Positions 15,701 through 62,458 of a DNA stretch of 64,000 bases are shown here, piece after piece. The position numbers were made by a program, and so were the translations under genes. Numbering within the stretch: position 1 is the stretch's first letter; each line of letters opens with the position of its first letter. The notes below the pieces were generated by a model. It ran no database searches. It worked only from the letters and a program-made list of their open reading frames with translations, and had not been told where the DNA came from. The stretch comes from Amyelois transitella (lineage: Eukaryota > Arthropoda > Insecta > Lepidoptera > Pyralidae): assembly GCF_032362555.1 (NCBI RefSeq), contig NC_083523.1, positions 7,973,501 to 8,037,500 of the forward strand. Reading direction: 5' to 3'.

Positions 15701-18700
15701 TTAACACGACAAATTAAGAACGTGAATACCTAGGAAGGTACCTACCTAGTTACCAAATGTAATTATTGGTACCTATATTTCATTAATCTGTACTTTTATT
15801 AAATTAGAAAATTAACTATAGAGGTATTTGGTAGGTACTTCGTGTATTAATAAAAAATACGTAATGTAATGAAGGTAACTACCTAGTTTAATTTTATTTA
15901 CAAAAACGCGGGAAATTGTACTGTCAAAAACTTTTGAGTTGTCAGTTCAAAGAGTGTCATGTCAAATAGTTGCAATAAATTACTAAAACCAGACAAAAGA
16001 GAAAATTTCTGGTGCCACCAATATTTAGGTGGTACCAGTATTCCTACTTTCCAGGTTTATTTTTAGGTAGCGTTGACATTGTGTCGACGACAATTTATTC
16101 GCGTAGTGTAATACAATGGCTTGTTTATTTTATTATTTAAGTAAAGGATCCTTGTGTTATTATTTTAAAAGTATATAAGGTACATCTAGGATCAACTCAA
16201 GAAATTCAGGTAGAAGTTGAACCACTCGATAAACGTTTATTTTTGTTGTTATTGTTTATTTACTGAAAAGACAGATATTATGATAATAGTTGGATAGTAA
16301 AGAATTGACCTTACTTCTAAAAAGTATATAATAGGACTTTTTTCTTCTGTTATTGTTAACAGTGCCAGTGTCGTGTGGTTCCCGGCACCAATAGAAAAAA
16401 TAATAGGACCACTCCATCTCTTTCCCATGAATGTCGTAAAAGGCGACTAAGGGATTGGCTTATAAACTTGGGATTCTTCTTTTAGGCGATGGGCTAGCAA
16501 CCTTTGACTATTTGAATCTCAATTCTATTTGAAACCCAAATAGCTGAACGTGGCCTGTTAGTCTTTTCAAGACTGTTGACTCTATCTACCCCACAAGGGA
16601 TATAGACGTGATTATATGTATGTATGTATTGTTTCCAGGTATAAGGATATCTTGGATGAAGCCCTTTGTCAGAGCTCTCACCAACCCCAATGCTGTATAA
16701 TATACCAAAGGCGCAGAGTTCTTGAGTGTACTCTAGAAGAAGGGAGGGACATCTCTTGGGAAGATGCATTGGAGGCTGATCCTGTACCATGTGTGTCAGT
16801 GGAGGCCAATGAACCTTTGTATATTCTGTACACTTCTGGTAAGGGCAAACAAGATGCTTTTCACTGCTCATTTCGATGAACCTTTGTATATTCTGTACAC
16901 TTCTGGTAAGGGCAAACAAGATGCTTTTGAATGCTCATTTCGTTTTATTTTATAGATTTTCTGTATTATTTAATTCATGACAACGACACAAGGCCTTCCA
17001 GTATTTTCAATACTGTCGAGTCTGTCTATCCCGTAAAGGAAGAAGAATGGTAATATATACCTAATCTTCATTTCCAGTTCTTCAACAGTGATCGGAGATG
17101 CTATCGATGTCATGGTTAGATCTCAAGAAAGATAAGAATCTGCGTTATCTTAGGCATTCATTGCTTATTTTTTAACGGAAATAAATAATGTTTTGTGTAG
17201 GTATGTGTGAACTGAAAGTAATAATTTGGATATTTACTTTTTTAGGGACAACAGATGCTCCTAAAGGTATACAAAGACCATGTGGCCATGCAGCCACCCT
17301 CTGTTGGTCAATGCATGCAGTGTATGGCTTGAGGAAAGGTGTTTGGTGGTCCGCCTCCGACCTTGGTTGGGTAGTTGGACATTCATATATCTGCTATGGA
17401 CCACTTCTTGCTGGCCTGACTTCTATTCTCTATGAGGGCAAGCCTGACAGGACTCCGGATCCAGGACAGTATTTTAGGTAAATGATCACACCTTTTATAT
17501 TTTTGATGGCGTTCACACTTTATTGCAAACTTTGTAAGAACTGTATTAAAAATAATGTCGATATTTTTTTTCCTAATTACACTTTTAGTCACTTAATTCT
17601 CCCCTACTGGTATCCACGTGTCTTTGGCAATTAATCTGACAGTCATAATTGCATAAACATATGTAAATTACATCCATTGCAGGATCATCGAACAACATAG
17701 AGTCAATGCGTTATTCACCATACCCACGGCATTCCGTGTTCTGAAAAGGGCAGATCCATCAGCTAAATATGCCAGAAGATATTGCGGAAAGTCTTTAAAA
17801 ACGGTATTTATTGCAGGAGAGCATTGCGATCAAGATACGAGAGTAAGTTTATGTTATACTACTAAGTATTTATTATATAAGCACTACTGGACTAGCAATA
17901 AAATACTTAAATAAATAAATGTTACCGTTTAAACTGTAGATTTAAACCGTGTGCATTTTAAAATGCTAATATACTTTAACAGTGGTCTGTGAACTCCGCC
18001 CTATGACACTTTTTGTTTCCATCGCAGTAATTAGTTGTATGCTAACGTTTTTAATTAACACAAAGTACCATTTAAGTTATATTGACACTTGTCATTGCCA
18101 CGTAACAAGATTACTAGTGCGCTGTTGTAAAAGATTATAGGAATAAGCAATTATCTACATATTGCTAAAACCATGATCCAAAGTAGGTACTGTTTACGTA
18201 CGAGATACCCACTAGAGATATTCTGAACGAGTAATTTGCTGTCAAAAACAGCATAAAGAAGATACATTACATTCTGTGAAAGTATAAGCTTAGTTTTAAC
18301 TATTAGCCCACATTATCAACTTTATAATTCATTAGTATACAAGTTGTTACTGGCGATCTCTACAAAAAAAATTACAATATAACTAACTGCTATTTCTATA
18401 TGCCTAGCCAATATTTAAAGATACATACAGTAAACGTAAATATAATATTCATACGAGTATTTCATTCTAGCAATGGGCGGAACGTATATTCGGAGTACCA
18501 GTTTTGAACCACTGGTGGCAGACGGAGACAGGGTCAGCGATAACCGCAGCGTGCCTTGGTTACGGCGTGAAATCTGTACCGCCACATTCAGCAGGTTACC
18601 CTGTGCCGGGATATGATAGTAAGTCCGTAATGTATTAAAATAAAACATTGAAAACCTTTTAGCAAATATTGTACTTACAAAATATTTTCATATAATAAAT

Positions 18701-31700: not shown

Positions 31701-34700
31701 CCTACTAATATTATAAATGCGAAAGTTTGTGAGTATTTCAGTATGGATGTTTGTAACTCTTTCACGCACAAACTACTGAACCGATTACGATGAAATTTGG
31801 TATGTAGGTAGCTGCGGACCCAGAATAACATAAAGGCTACTTTTTATCCCGGAGTTACCGCGGGTTTGATAGGGTTTCCATGCGGACGAAGTCGCGGGAG
31901 GCCTCTAGTAAACAAATATAACAATAGCGGATCCTTAAAACTAACACCGTGCCGTGTGGTCCCCGGCACCAATACAAAAAAAGAATAGGACCACTCTATC
32001 TCTTTCCCATGGATGTCGTAAAAGGCGACTAAGGGATAGGCTTACAAACTTGGGATTCTTTTTTAGGCGATGGGCTAGCAACCTGTCACTATTTGAATCT
32101 CAATTCTATCATTAAGCCAAATAGCTGAACGTGGCCATTCAGTCTTTTTAAGACTGTTGGCTCTGTCTACCCTGCAAGGCACATAGACGTGACCGTGAAT
32201 GTCGTAATGATCAGCGATCTTTATCATCACTAGTTGTGATTATATCTGTGGCAGGGTTTCGGCGGTAAGTTCGGCATCGAATCGGACAGGGTGGACAAAT
32301 CCGCTCACCGTTTCGATGAGGTGGAGAAAGTGGGCACCAACTACATCAAACAGAAGCCGGACATCGGTGGCGCCAAGCCCTCCACCATCAGAGCCAAGTT
32401 TGAGAACATGGCTAAAGAGAAGGAACAGGTAAGAGAGGACTGATGTTTTACGGATAAATTACATAAGCTAAATAATAATAATTAATTACACTATTAAATA
32501 AAATTAAATAAAAAGGAACTTTATTTTTTCTCCACAACAATACAATTGGTGTCTTAACTATACCATAACTAATATACATAAGTCTGTTGTGGAGAACTGG
32601 TGCCTGAACTAGGTATCCGAAGGAACCTGTCATACAGGACACCAGGCCTCCCCTCAGAGAGAGTACATGAATATTATGAATAAGTGCACACTGATACTAA
32701 TAATCTAAATTAAATTTACCTTTTAGTAGATAATGATTAAATAATTTTAAAATTAAATGTCATAACACCGGGGATGCCTGACTGGATCACCACGATTTCA
32801 CGCCCCGCAGTCTCACCTCTCGACATCCTTAGCCACCCACGCCGATGTTGCCCCTTTGTTGCTTATCATGGTGACTGATTTGAGGGGCCCATTTAGTGAG
32901 TGGCGAGTCACCACCTGCCACATAATAGTCACGTATTCATGATTATGGCAGGTGTCTGAATTTCTCCAGCATAGCCCATTTTAAATCCATCCAAACTTCA
33001 ACGCCATTAACTAATCATTCCTTTCCTTATTTTGTAATAGCTCCACCTGCCGAGACCTGTTCATGGACATATCGTCTATTGATATGCCCGGGAACGGGTT
33101 TTGGCAGGAGAACAACATAACATCAACTTCTCCAAAGGGCCTCTACGTGTTGGATTTATATCCCCACGCAAGCCTCTCAAAAATCCGGGGTGTATAGACC
33201 CGTAAAATCCAAGCGGAGAAACATAATAATAATTAAAGCTCATAGTGTGGATATTAAAAAACTAACTTAAAAAATAATAATAAAAATAATATTAAAAAAG
33301 AATAGGATCACTCCATCCCTTTCCCATGGATTTTGTAAAATACGACTAAGGGATATGCTTATAAACTTGGGATTCCTCATTTAGGCGATGGGCTAGCAAC
33401 CTGTCACTATTAGAATCTCAATTCTATCATTGCAGCTGTTTGGCAATTGGAATTGAAATTCGAATAGTGAGGTTGCCATTTGAATCTCAATTCTATCATT
33501 AAGTTGAACGTGGCCTTTTGGTCTTTTCGAGACTGTTGGCTCTGTCTACCCCGCAAGTGACACAGACGTGATTATATGTCAATCACATGGATATTGTTTT
33601 TATTGTATTAGGTGGAGAAAGTAGGTGGCTTCAACAAGCAGAGGTCCAACGTCAGTGGAGCTAAACCTTCGTCTATTGGCGCTAAATTTGAGAACATGGC
33701 TAGAGAGAAAGAACAGGTAATGTTATTTCTAGAACTTACATTTGTTTTGTGTGTTTGGTTAAATGACTCCACACTTACGTAATTAATTATTTAATAATGT
33801 ATTTTTATTTCATTAAATACTTGGATTGCCCGCGACTTTGTCCGCGTAGTTTCTTTTTTTCGCAATAAAAAGCAGTCTAGGGAGCGTTCAAGTATTACGT
33901 AACGCAATTTGGGGGGAGGGGGGGTCTCGTGAAACGTTACGATGCGTTACAAGGGCGGGAGGGGTCTTTCTTACAACACGTTACGTAACATTGTTTTTCT
34001 TAAATAAAAAATTAGGAAATTAAAACTCCCAAGTTGGCAACCCATTTACGTTTTACGGGGAATCCCTCGATTGTATATTCTGGTCGTCAATTTTACTTTT
34101 TTCTCGCAAGTTGGCAAACCTTTTCGTTTATATTTCACGGGGAATCCCTAGATTGTATTGTACGGCATTTAATGTTGTTTAGTTGGGTTTCTGTTAATAA
34201 TTGCATTGTCAAAGGTTAAAATAAAAATGTTATTTTATTTCAAGAGTTAATTATTGTGTAAAGCCAAAAATTTATAAAAAATAAACAAAATATGCAGGTG
34301 GTGCGGATTAAAAATCTCTTGTTTTTTTTAGTATTATTACCGCAAAGGCAATTAAAAGTATACCAAGGATAAAAACTATAACATAACTTTTTGCAACTTT
34401 AGGGTAAAAATGGTCACTTGAGTGTTACGTAACGTTTAGAGAGAGGGGGGGGGGGGGATACAGAAAAACGTTACGGTGCGTTACAAGGGGGGGAGGAGGG
34501 GTCAAAAATCTTCAAAAATTGCGTTACGTAATACTTGAACGCTCCCCTATATACACTGTACCAAATTTTCTAGACCGTTGGCTCTGTCCACCCCGCAAGG
34601 TATACACAGACGTGATTATATGACTTAACATAGCTAGTAATTTATATGTATAATTGTTTTCTAGGAGGCGCTAGAATCAGTACAAAAAATAAGACAGCAG

Positions 34701-37700
34701 AGAGAACAGATGGACAAAAAACTTTCAGAAAAGGTACATGTCACTTTGTCATCAATAAAAGTACGGTAGCAATTTATAATTTCTCCCATTTTATTTTTCT
34801 AATGAAAATTGAATTTTTTGGTTGTAACACGATAGACTTTCCAATTCGGACAATTCTACAAATTTTCAACAGCGAAAGTGATTTATGAATGTGGATGAAG
34901 CGAAAGAAGTATGCAGGGATCGTGGCAAGTGCAAAGATGTAGCCTCTGCCTATTCCTTTCGGGAAAGAATGCGTGGTTATGTATGTATGTTTATAACCAC
35001 GCATTCTTTCCTGAAAAGCGAGCGATAACGAAAATGTAAATTATTTTTTATATTTATACTAGCTGTGCCCGCGACTTCGTCCACGTGGAATAGTTATTTT
35101 GGGCATCCAAGCCCTCAAGGATGAATAATTTTCCCCGTTTTTTTCCACATTTTCTATTATTTCTTCGCTCCTAATAGTTGCAGCGTAATGTTATATAGCC
35201 TAAAGCCTTCCTCGATACATGCTCTATTCAACACAAAAATAATTTTTCAATTTGAACCAGTAGTTCACAAGATTAGCGCGTTCAAACAAACAAACTCTTC
35301 AGCTTTATAAGATTAGTATAGAAGTATAGATTTTTGTGAAATGCCTTGGATTATTCATTTAGTCAGCCTTGGTATCTGTGCAATGTTAATAATAATATAA
35401 TGTTTTTTTAAGGAGAAAGAACGTCTTGCGCAAGAGTCGCAAGTACAAGAGCCGCCGCCGCCCGCACATTCCAAGGCGGAGGTGCCCGCTGAAGGTAACA
35501 AAAAATCTCATATTGAATACTAGCTGTCAGTGTGTATGTCATTCATTTTCATTCGTATCATTCAATTCATTCATGTGTCATTCAAATATCGCACGATGGG
35601 CAGGCATTCCACCCGTACATGGTTGATATCATTGCCATTCGTCAAATCTTTGTGGCGAACCGCTTTGAATTGGAATTCCCTCCCTGCATCACTTTTTTCC
35701 TCCTGGCTATAGTCCTGGGTGCATCCACACCAAAATTCAAAATTTTTATTCATTATTATAGGATACTATATATCGCTTAATAATTGTCGTATGGTTTAAC
35801 AACATTGGTTGACGTCAAATAAATTACTTAAAAACTAAGTTTACTGCCGCTTCCAAGGCGTCAGTGCAGAAGAAGCGGTAACAAACTGCACTGCAGCATT
35901 TTCTTCAACAACGTCAACTTCACAATATTAAATTATACTTAGAATAGAATGTGGACGAGAGAATACATTGTTGAATTTTATATATTTATGAGATTTAATA
36001 TTGAAAAAAGAAAAATATATATATATATTATATGGATTTTATTGGACACCACTCTGGAGAGGAGATAATTGAAATTCAAGTAGGTGGTACCTAGTGGCAG
36101 GTTGCTACCCATCGTCTGAAAGAAGAATCCCAATCGCACAAATTCCGTCTGGTTTTTTGTCTTCCTCCTGGCTTTAGTCCCGGTTGCATCCTCTCTGGAG
36201 AGGAGCCCGGGGTATGCTTTTGACCGTGGATCCTGGATTGGATGAGGCAGGATTTTACACGAAGCGACTCCCATCTGACCTATCCCTTCCGCTATAGCCT
36301 ATTGAAAGACGTGCCCCCTATTTTTATCTGGACAGCGTATTGTATGTATGTTTGTCCGCGATGATCTCGCGTTTCGCTGAACCGATTTTGATGCGGTTTT
36401 CAGGAAAAGGGTTTGTTACACTTTAGAAATTTAACCGACTTAAAAAAAGGAGGATATTGATTGAAGGCGGTTCTCTTTTTACAAAAGTTATTTTTGATGG
36501 TATTTTGTAATTTGCGCGGGATAAATAACAGATGGGCACACGCTGCTTATCTTCGTAACTTTTTTATTTTTAATTCAATTAAAAACATTTTTGTGAAAGA
36601 TAATTTCGGTGGTACCTACATTGTTTAATAACAATCTGTTGTATTGTTGTTTATGCCGTGTGGTTCCCGGCACCAATAAAAAAAGAAAGAATAGGACTAC
36701 TCAATCTCGTTCCCATGGATGTCGTAAAAGGCGACTAAGGGATAGGCTTATAAACTTGGGATTCTTCTTTTAGACGATGGGCTAGCAACCCGTCACTATT
36801 TGAATCTCCATTCTATCATTAAGCCAAATAGCTGAACGTGGCCTATCAGTCTTTTCAAGACTGTTGGCTCTGTCTACCCCGTAACGGATAAAACCGTGAT
36901 CATATGTATGTATGTATGTATTGTTTCAGTTGAAGTGACGAAGTCCAAAGAAGTGGAACCTCCGAAGGAGGAGCAGCAGCCGAACTTGCCCGACGTCACC
37001 CTGGTCGGAGAACCCAAAGAGGATAGGGAAGAGGTAAACACACATCTTTGTCCAATTTTGTTAAAATAGTGAGTATGAGTGAGAGTGCCGTGCGGTTCCC
37101 GGCACCAATACAAAAAAAAAGGAATAGGACCACTCCATCTCTTTCCCATGGATGTCGTAAAAGGCGACCAAGGGATAGGCTTATAAACTTGGGATTCCTC
37201 TTTTAGGCGATGGGCTGGCAACCTGTCACTATTTGAATCTCAATTCTATCATTAAGCCAAATTGCTGAACGTGGCCATTCAGTCTTTTCAAGACTGTTGG
37301 CTCTGTCTACCCCGCATGGGATATGGACGTGACCATATATAATATGTATATGTATGTATGTGAGTATGACTAATAACGTGAAAGGCGTTATCTCGCGGTT
37401 CTGCCCCGCTGTGACCTTGAAATCTCGTTGATTGACCTTGCCGTAGGAAATCGTATATAGTGCATCCTAACCACAGATTAAAGACCTACCCTACACCACA
37501 TAAGACTTCTACATGGCAAATAGAAAATTACTATATCAGTAGTTTGAGTTCTGGCGTATTTTGTCAAAAACAATATATATATATATATATATTGTTCACG
37601 CTTCAGCCGTGTGGTTCCCGGCACTAAAGAATAGGACCACTTCACATCTTTCCCTTGGATGTAGTAAAATTCGACTATGGGATAGGCTAATAAACTTAGG

Positions 37701-40700
37701 ATTCTTCTTGTAGGTGATGTGCTAGCAACCTGCCACTATTTGAATCTCAATTGCATTATTAAGCCATACAGCTGAAAGTGGCTCTCTCTAAAGCCGTCGG
37801 TCTTAAGAGTGAAGGCCACTTTCAGCTGTCTATATCTGTCATATTTATCACGTCCATATTCCTTGCGGTGTAGGCACCCCGTGATAAATATGACAAATAT
37901 AGACGTGATAAATATAAAGATAATGTAAATAATGTATGTTTGTATGTTCATGCAGCACAATAACAATTTAACATGGTCTTGTCAGTGTTCCGAGGCTCAG
38001 TCTAGCTTATTTAGTTTAGTTTTTTCTCAGTTATCCCGGCAACCCACGATCGAAAGTTTAGCTTATTTAGTTTTTTTTCTCTCTCAATTGTCCCGGCAAC
38101 CCACGATCGAAAGTCTAGCTTATTTAGTTTAATTTTTTCTCAGTTGTCCCGGCAACCCACGATCGAAAGTCTAGCTTATTTAGTTTAATTTTTTCTCAGT
38201 TGTCCCGGCAACCCACGATCGAAAGTCTAGCTTATTTAGTTTAGTTTTTTCTCAGTTATCCCGGCAACCCACGATCGAAAGTCTAGCTTATTTAGTTATA
38301 TATTATATATATAAATATTAGATCAGGTTATACTGGCGTCATCAGCGGAGGAGTTACAGGAGATGGTAAACTGTATGCATGAAGCTTTAAAAGAGAAAGG
38401 AATGAAAGTGAACGTAAGTAAAACTAAAACACTGGTTTTTGAAATGGAGAAAGAAATGACAGCATGTAATATTTTGATTGGAGGAGAAAAAGTGGAGCAA
38501 GTGAAAGAGTTTGTATATCTAGGATCAAAGTTTACATCAGATGGCAAGTATGATAGTGATATTGAAAGGAGAGTGAACGCGGGGAACATGGTGAATGGAG
38601 CTTTGCATGCCTTTATGAGCAGTCAGAAACTATCCAAAAAGGCTCGACTGGCTGTGCACAGGGGCGTGTTGGTCCCGACATTAATGTATGGGAGTGAAAG
38701 TTGGGTATGGCAAAAGAAGCATGAAAGCAGAATAAATGCAGTGGAAATGAGAGCGTTAAGGAGTATGATGGGTGTGAAATTGAGTGACAGGATAAGGAAC
38801 AGCGTGATAAGGGAATGTTGTGATGTGAAAGAAGATGTAGTTACAGGAATAGAAAAGGGTATGTTAAGATGGTTCGGTCATGTGGAGAGGATGAATGAAA
38901 GCAGGTTGACTAAGCAGATATACAAGGAGAGTGTGGAGGGAAAGGTCGGAGTGGGAAGACCTAGACGAACGTATCTTGATCAAATTAAGGACGTCCTGGT
39001 AAAGGGTCAGGTCAAAAGTACCCGAAACCGCCGAGCTTGTATGAAGAGAGTTATGAATGTGGACGAAGCGAAAGAAGTATGCAGAGATCGTGGCAAGTGG
39101 AAAGAGGTAGTCTCTGCCTACCCCTCCGGGAAAGAGGCGTGATTTTATGTATGTATGTATGTATGTATAAATATTATATACAGACGGCCTCTGTGGCGCA
39201 GCGGTAGTACGTTTGTCTGTGACACCGGAGGTCCCGGGTTCGAATCCCGGCCAGGGCATGATGAGAAAAGAACTTTTTCTGATTGGCCTGGGGTCTTGGA
39301 TGTTTATCTATATAAGTATTTATTATAAAATATAGTATCGTTGAGTTAGCATCTCGTAACACAAGTCTCGAACTTACTTCGAGGCTAACTCAATCCGTGT
39401 AATATTTCAGATATATACACATATATTTATATATATATATTTACGATTATACTTGTGTTTCTCTCCTCAGTTGTCCCGGCAGCCCACGATCGTGGTGTCC
39501 CCCGTGGGCTGGGAGGGCGAGGCGGGCGGGGAGCAGGAGGAGGACGAGGAGTGCTACACTGCGCGTGCGCTGTACGACTACCAGGCGGCCGCGCCCGACG
39601 AGATATCCTTTGACCCCGATGACCTCATCACCAATATCGTCATGGTATATAGGATAGAATGAATTTATTATCAACTAGCGACCCGCCCCGGCTTCGCACG
39701 GGTGCAAAATTATAAATGTTATTATACATAGAAACCATCCTCTTGAATCACTCTGCCTGTTACAAAAAACCGCATCAAAATCCGTTGCGTAATTTTAAAG
39801 ATTTAAGCATACAGATAAACGGACTAAAATAGCGACTTTGTTTTGTACTATGTAGTGAAGTTGGATACAAGGTATCACTTATTGACGTCACATCACTTTA
39901 ATCTAATTGTAACTACTGCCGCTTCCAAAGCGCACGTGTAGAAGAAGCGGCTAAACAACGTAGTTTGCAGCATTTACATCGGACGTCAATATACAAATGT
40001 GGATCTCTTAAATCTACATCATGGACGAATGCACATTGTCTACATTAAAAAAACATGAATGTAGAACTAGTTATTTCAATACGAATATTATGTCAAATAA
40101 ATAAAGATAAAATGAAATATGTGCACACTGTACAAATTATGTCAACGCCATGTCAAAAATGCACAAGCATTTAAGAGGGCATTATCTCAAGCTCGGGCCA
40201 CACATGTTTATCATTAATATAATCCTCCGTGCTGTAATAGGCTTTCCTACAAATATTTCAAGAGAAATTTATTTTTTCCATACATGCATAAAATCAAGTC
40301 TCTTTATACTTGCCACGATCGCTGCATAATTCTTTCGCTCCTTCCGAATTTAAAACTGCTTCACGCAAGGTCGTCGATTTAGGGTATTCTCGACCTGACC
40401 TTTGGCCAAAATGTTGCTTATTCTGTCTCGCCCTTTCCAAATTATTGTCAGAATATAGATTGAGTTAAATGAGGAGAGATGACGAGGGTGAAATGTCCGG
40501 GGAACAGGAGGCATACGAGAAATGTTATGCTGCGCGTGCGCTGTACGGCGGCCGCTTCGGACGAAATATGATTATTGACATTGACTCATCACCAACATTG
40601 TCATGGTATATGTAGAGAGATTTTTTTTTCATACACAAAATTAAGCCTCTTCCCCGGCGGGGTAGGCAGAGACGACGTCTTTCCACTTGCTACGGTCCCT

Positions 40701-61528: not shown

Positions 61529-62458
61529 GTGTCTACTTATTTCAATCAGGTATATTTACAGGCAAAAAAAAGAAGTTTACTATTCTAGTACCATGAAAAC
61601 TCATCACCTATATAAACAAATTTTTTAACATTGATCTAAAGCCGACTTGTCAGATGTCCATATAAAAGACCTAATTAACCTACTGGTTCCTAATATTGAG
61701 GTACCAGAACCTCAGAAATCAAAGGTGTCGGCTACTTTCAATTAGCGTAGAATCAAAATCGAAAACCGAAAAAAAACAGAAGAACACCTACTAGTTTCTA
61801 ATATTAAGGTACCAGCTACTTTCAATTGGCGTAGCATTTTTGTAGGCGTGGAAATATTATCTAGAATCAAAAAGTACAAACTAGAATCGAAAACCGAAAA
61901 AAACAGAAGAAAACACCCACTAGTTTCTAATATTAAGGTACCAGGACCTCAGAAATCAAAGGTGTACTTTTAATTGGCGTATCATTTTTGTAGGCGCAGA
62001 AATATTATCTAAAATCAAAAAGTACAAACAAACTTGAATCGAAAACCGATAAAAACCGAAGGAAACACCTACTAATTCTAATATTAAGGTACCAGGACCT
62101 CAGAAATCAAAGGTGTACTTTTAATTGGCGTATCATTTTTGTAGGCGCGGAAATATTATCTAGAATCAAAAAAATACAAACAAACTAGAATCGAAAACCG
62201 ATAAAAACCGAAGGAAACACCTACTAGTTTCTAATATTAAGGTACCAAGACCTCAGAAATCAAAGGTGTACTTTTAATTGGCGTATCATTTTTGTAGGCG
62301 CGGAAATATTATCTAGAATCAAAAAGTACAAACAAACTAGAATCGAAAACCGATAAAAACCGAAGACAACACCTACTAGTTTCTAATATAAAGGTACCAG
62401 GACCTCAGAAATCGAAGGTGTCTATTTATTTCAATCAGCGATATTTGCAGGCATGCAC
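61529..62458 (+). repeat. tandem array of about 152-bp units upstream of a TATA promoter
   Basis: GGTACC marks unit starts at 61700, 61808, 61937, 62088, 62241 and 62393 (spacings 108, 129, 151, 153, 152). Unit landmarks in order: GGTACCAGGACCTCAGAAAT, TTTTAATTGGCGTATCATTT, TTGTAGGCGCGGAAATATTA, AATCGAAAACCGATAAAAAC and ACACCTACTAGTTTCTAATA. The array is bracketed by direct repeats of AAGGTGTCTACTTATTTCAA (near 61529 and 62419). The first two units carry internal deletions. Confidence 0.93.

Follow-up and report, generated by a model that had tools for sequence, protein, structure and literature searches.

An array of cortactin splice-boundary units in a moth intron appears to be a mirage-type minisatellite

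Why should the acceptor of a coding exon recur several times in the very intron that it terminates, and are the additional sites of any consequence for splicing? The cortactin gene of the moth Amyelois transitella raises this question. The gene lies on the + strand at about 22.8-41.3 kb of the window, the 64,000-nucleotide stretch of DNA that was analysed, which belongs to an assembly of 327 Mb in 33 contigs. The gene is identified by a Pfam profile search in which its exon peptides, once joined, match SH3 and, in six stretches, HS1_rep, the HS1/cortactin repeat (1.5e-101). Exon 11 (36930..37033, + strand) was assigned by frame and splice consensus alone and has the donor GAAGAG/gtaaac, and the true exon 12 (39471..39644, + strand) was assigned by frame, consensus and the match of its peptide, in a genome search, to just one place in the assembly. 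The intervening intron 11 (37034-39470) contains the array of splice-boundary units that is described here.

Structure of the array and its match to exon 12

TRF reports a single array in intron 11, at 37999-38297 on the + strand, with a period of 56, 5.3 copies and 93% matches. Alignment of the units with one another and with exon 12 resolves this array into five boundary units and a partial sixth, all in + orientation. Specifically, unit 1 (38000-38055), unit 3 (38113-38168), unit 4 (38169-38224) and unit 5 (38225-38280) are each 56 bp long, and their exon-like parts begin at 38031, 38144, 38200 and 38256, respectively. Unit 2 (38056-38112) is 57 bp long, with an exon-like part from 38088, and AA replaces AG at its acceptor. 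The partial sixth unit (38281-38297) comprises 17 bp. Each of the five full units presents the same order of parts: the end of the intron with its polypyrimidine tract, the motif CTCAG (CTCAA in unit 2), a 22-bp stretch of exon 12, and AAA.

Two differences separate the 22 exon-derived base pairs from exon 12, one of them fixed in the array and the other variable from unit to unit, and both are silent in frame. Over the 27-bp boundary, compared with 39466-39492, two units match at 26/27 positions (96.3%) and three at 25/27 (92.6%). A chance resemblance between the array and exon 12 is excluded because the best other place within the window carries 9 mismatches. Units 1 and 5 are identical to each other, as are units 3 and 4, a pattern that fits a homogenising array, and unit 2 is divergent. 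The DNA of the array, like the peptide of exon 12, is found at a single place in the assembly by genome search. No other gene copy need therefore be invoked, and a retrocopy or a second cortactin gene is rejected as the source.

Most of what the initial annotation had said of this structure is confirmed. It described an exon-12 acceptor, amplified together with the start of its exon into a five-unit tandem array in the preceding intron, and the content of the units and the boundary match of 25-26/27 bear this out, with the partial sixth unit besides. As claimed, every one of the five units carries the peptide LSRQPTI in frame, AG is kept in four of five, and the acceptor of the last unit lies 1,215 bp from the start of exon 12, in keeping with the stated distance of about 1.2 kb. 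The remaining details require some correction: the unit length of 56 bp holds for four units, the polypyrimidine tract is present in all but the CTCAG in only four, and the exon start in each unit extends over 22 bases rather than about 25.

Mobile elements and the origin of the array

Of the 1.2 kb that separate the array from exon 12, about 1.1 kb is made up of a LINE and a SINE with their target-site duplications, all annotated on the + strand. The first of these elements is a 5′-truncated LINE fragment (38321..39165), which is flanked by an 11-bp target-site duplication (left copy 38310..38320, right copy 39166-39176). It is followed by a tRNA-headed SINE (39183..39411), which is flanked by an 8-bp duplication (left copy 39175..39182, right copy 39412-39419) and is repeated elsewhere in the genome. 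The head of the SINE (tRNA-like part 39187-39258) is recognized as tRNA-like by ARAGORN and scores 34 bits with the Rfam tRNA model, compared with a gathering score of 29. The name LINE for the other element is suggested by its copies elsewhere and by a weak match to the reverse-transcriptase profile RVT_1 that falls under Pfam's cut-off.

Eight other copies of the LINE were compared with the fragment. It shows 0 differences in 845 positions from L003-L006, and 2 from L007 and L008; the remaining copies are L009, which begins 20 bases later, and L010, which has 20 differences. Judged by its identity to four other copies over 845 bp, the LINE fragment is very young. The SINE is probably older, because the matches inside it (at least six among the matches listed) have 79-95% identity, whereas four LINE copies are identical to the fragment.

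When the LINE and the SINE are left out, 80 bp remain between the end of the partial sixth unit and exon 12. A whole unit can then be aligned with this tail at 48/53 positions if one AT-rich gap of 66 bp is allowed, such that the partial unit provides the first part and the true acceptor and exon start provide the rest, although the 5′ part of this alignment is partly AT-rich and loose. Thus, an array that today stands 1.2 kb from the exon boundary would, without the two elements, adjoin it save for 66 bp of AT-rich DNA. The earlier placement of the amplification far inside the intron is therefore probably wrong. A caution is that the partial unit could end where the homology to the exon starts by coincidence, which an arbitrary end would bring about, by our reckoning, with a probability of roughly 10/56.

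An origin in place, and the order of events that follows, is most likely on the evidence of these alignments. A tandem duplication would have begun across the boundary between intron 11 and exon 12 of cortactin. It would have grown to about six units, with the real acceptor in the last one. AT-rich DNA would later have split this last unit, and the insertion of the SINE and of the very young LINE fragment would have put 1.2 kb between the five spare acceptors and the exon downstream. The array would then have persisted as a near-neutral by-product of local duplication, a process that touches other exon ends too.

Alternatively, the boundary might have been copied, for instance through a template switch in the course of repair, to a distant point of the intron, where it was amplified without ever having been joined to exon 12. 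Such an event would suit the present distance of 1.2 kb as well as the AAA at the unit junctions, which has no source in exon 12 and also speaks against the in-place account. We nevertheless regard distant copying as quite improbable, since the distance is largely that of two insertions with target-site duplications, and since without them only 80 bp remain and the partial unit makes up one whole unit together with the true acceptor. Although tandem repeats commonly attract assembly error, it is very improbable that this array is an artefact, given that it is only 299 bp long with units that differ among themselves, that the flanking elements have intact target-site duplications, and that the assembly comprises just 33 contigs.

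Arrays of this general kind have been described before. 'Mirage' minisatellites were named in amphioxus, where the examples include the globins BflGb6 and BflGb9 and Adh3 (PMC3087553), with TnC and PGBD5 as further cases (PMC3902484). In these two papers, the mirage unit spans an intron-exon boundary, both acceptor and donor sides are known, and copy-number variation and the splicing outcome were tested, with splicing reported to be undisturbed. Like the amphioxus mirages, the cortactin unit joins the end of an intron to the start of an exon in the original order and is present several times. As in the amphioxus arrays described there, many units keep the splice dinucleotide (AG in 4/5 for cortactin) and the units are homogenised. 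Unlike them, the cortactin array resides in an insect gene and has a LINE and a SINE between itself and its exon; and whereas copy number and splicing were tested for the amphioxus arrays, the cortactin array is known from the sequence of one assembly alone. Among the matches listed in the open-licence literature, we found no insect example of a splice-boundary repeat.

The cortactin array therefore appears to be a mirage-type splice-boundary minisatellite, with an apparent detachment by mobile elements as a twist. The complete account, in which a mirage was built in place, was detached by the SINE and the LINE, and left its spare acceptors as a near-neutral by-product, is in our judgement probable.

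Strength and possible use of the spare acceptors

The units of the array are potential splice sites that stand between exon 11 and the true acceptor. Acceptors were scored with a weight matrix built from 22 acceptors that belong to two genes of the window, from which the true exon-12 site was left out; the boundaries of these 22 acceptors and of 20 reference donors were assigned by hand on the basis of frame and consensus alone. The four intact units score 12.4-14.0 bits and unit 2 scores 2.7, compared with 6.1 bits for the true exon-12 site, and the best of the 22 reference acceptors reaches 12.45 bits (leave-one-out). Translation from each of the five unit acceptors stops after 14-33 codons. 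With regard to sequence, then, a poison or decoy site would be expected to offer what is found here, namely acceptors stronger than the true site in four units and a premature stop.

An exon that extended from a unit acceptor to 39644, the donor of exon 12, would measure 1,389-1,614 nt. Donor-like sites are present in the LINE after 38365 (8.13 bits), after 38413 (4.57 bits) and after 38858 (9.7 bits), and unit 5 could be combined with such sites to form potential cryptic exons at 38256-38365 (110 nt) or 38256-38413 (158 nt). Use of a spare acceptor would thus demand either an exon of at least 1.4 kb that reaches the donor of exon 12, or a donor in the LINE. On these sequence features the array is most likely near-neutral, with spare acceptors that are mostly unused. 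The counterpoint is that four units outscore the true acceptor, which argues against a spliceosome that ignores them.

For this last reason, use as decoy or poison acceptors keeps some probability, though we consider it unlikely. In that event, some cortactin pre-mRNA would be spliced from exon 11 into the array, which would lower or tune cortactin production through a truncated and probably degraded mRNA without the SH3 domain, and the LINE donors could close a cryptic exon. The strength of the unit acceptors (12.4-14.0 versus 6.1 bits) and the in-frame stops that follow them are what such a role would entail, and the LINE donor-like sites of 8.13 and 4.57 bits are within the spread of scores of the 20 reference donors. 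Given the youth of the LINE, however, any role that depended on it would be recent, and a cryptic exon that ended at a LINE donor would have arisen by accident and not as an adapted device. Moreover, five nearly identical units give no legible sign of selection, and the amphioxus mirages are reported not to disturb splicing.

Of the three roles that the initial annotation proposed (decoy acceptors, micro-exons or neutrality), the second, in which the units would be spliced in as exons of 25 nt, is scarcely credible: GT does follow the exon-like part of each unit, but this donor-like site scores 1.67 bits in four units and -1.95 in one, under all 20 reference donors (lowest 2.62), such that no usable donor follows the exon-like part, and a 25-nt exon would break the frame.

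Splice-boundary copies elsewhere in the gene and genome

The array is accompanied by other boundary copies, two of which are on the + strand of cortactin itself and were delineated by alignment. In intron 12, the later part of exon 12 and its donor recur as a decayed copy (40484..40605) that has lost the frame. An exon-like copy of the end of exon 8 with its donor (33612..33716, 'E9') is in frame and free of stops; in the alignment, its acceptor ATTAG falls on the exonic ATGAG of exon 8. Its differences from exon 8 are mainly silent (dN 0.17 and dS 1.7, rough values from 35 codons). By these features, 33612-33716 is an old copy that looks like a conserved exon, and it was possibly born from a boundary duplication.

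In an AMP-binding gene of the window, a 67 bp x 2 repeat (16809..16942, + strand; TRF, Pfam and donor sites) includes an exon end with its donor, and the site CTG/GTAAGG occurs twice, after 16838 and after 16905. The window also holds a 152 bp x 4 array at 61817-62421, in whose unit no coding boundary was seen by inspection.

To extend the comparison to the genome, exons were sampled through SH3 and SH2 matches. Of 48 SH3 matches, cortactin's own was dropped to leave 47 (30 + 17), and 25 of 33 SH2 matches were examined, the other 8 being left out; some matches come from one gene. Local copies were accepted at ≥25 bp, ≥80%, E 1e-3 and a three-letter complexity of ≥0.6 within 700 bp, thresholds that were fixed only after the first matches had appeared. 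Direct local copies of sequence from the exon or its edge accompany 8/72 exons (SH3 6/47; SH2 2/25, from 0/10 and 2/15), whereas an inverted copy accompanies 0/72 of these sampled SH3/SH2 exons. This difference points to local duplication in direct order.

By eye, the copied stretch includes a clear splice junction at six of the eight loci (L028, L037, L049, L055, L082 and L084), and L026 and L047 are unsettled. At L037 (G000:C1:12998661-12998804 with flanks), an SH3 exon end forms a 102 bp x 12.3 array that is 99% alike, in which the donor CAG/GTACAC occurs 12 times; the period is divisible by three, and the frame is open for 497 aa. The SH2 exon of L082 has a donor array of 135 bp x 5.3, in which the copies read GTCAGT versus GTGAGT at the true site. 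Shorter arrays are found at L049 (149 bp x 2.4, at a donor) and at L084, an SH2 exon with a 100 bp x 2 acceptor array plus a separate donor copy.

A preference of local copies for exon edges is not supported by these data. SH3 cores are positive in 6/47 cases versus 4/94 for flanks (p = 0.08), and inclusion of SH2 gives 8/72 (p = 0.13); the 94 flank segments come from SH3 loci only, and two of their four positives are in loci that are also core-positive. Tiles of 220 bp across the window contain a local direct copy in 29/282 cases, a rate like that of the exons, and many of the positive tiles are mobile-element pairs and the arrays themselves. Exon copies may be recognisable for longer than intron copies. 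For a regular weakening of the spare sites, the outcome is mixed: in 10 donor pairs the copy is weaker in five, equal in four and stronger in one, and the cortactin acceptor copies are stronger than the true site in 4/5.

The initial judgement that such an amplification is unusual must be tempered, since the kind is known from amphioxus and similar repeats occur at other exons of the same genome. Related phenomena have been reported in several organisms. Human segmental-duplication paralogs carry internal tandem repeats at exon-intron boundaries, some of which activate cryptic splice sites (PMC2812944). These units are of minisatellite size like those of cortactin (on average about 30 bp x 4 in human), but they are variable, belong to recent paralogs and were found by comparing exons with RNA, whereas exon 12 of cortactin is single-copy. 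The transcript of an earthworm metallothionein gene lacks the exon-4 duplications that the gene contains (PMC12783039).

Intron gain by tandem duplication has been described in Drosophila (PMC2891723) and potato (PMC4974935). In the gain of introns or exons by this route, the local duplication brings along a splice signal and an exonic AG can become an acceptor, and the exon-like copy at 33612-33716 fits this course. The same copy also fits the model of the amphioxus globin paper, in which a boundary repeat gives rise to an exon. Unlike the intron-gain cases, the cortactin array itself has, by its sequence, made no new intron or exon.

We tentatively suggest, while regarding the generalisation as somewhat doubtful, that this genome recurrently copies splice boundaries in tandem, and that cortactin displays a fresh array, a decayed copy and an old copy turned conserved exon. 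If true, mirages would be actively supplying new exons beyond amphioxus. A genome with boundary arrays of different ages would offer a natural test of how the spliceosome chooses among near-equal sites, and such a genome would also test the idea that boundary repeats seed new exons and introns.
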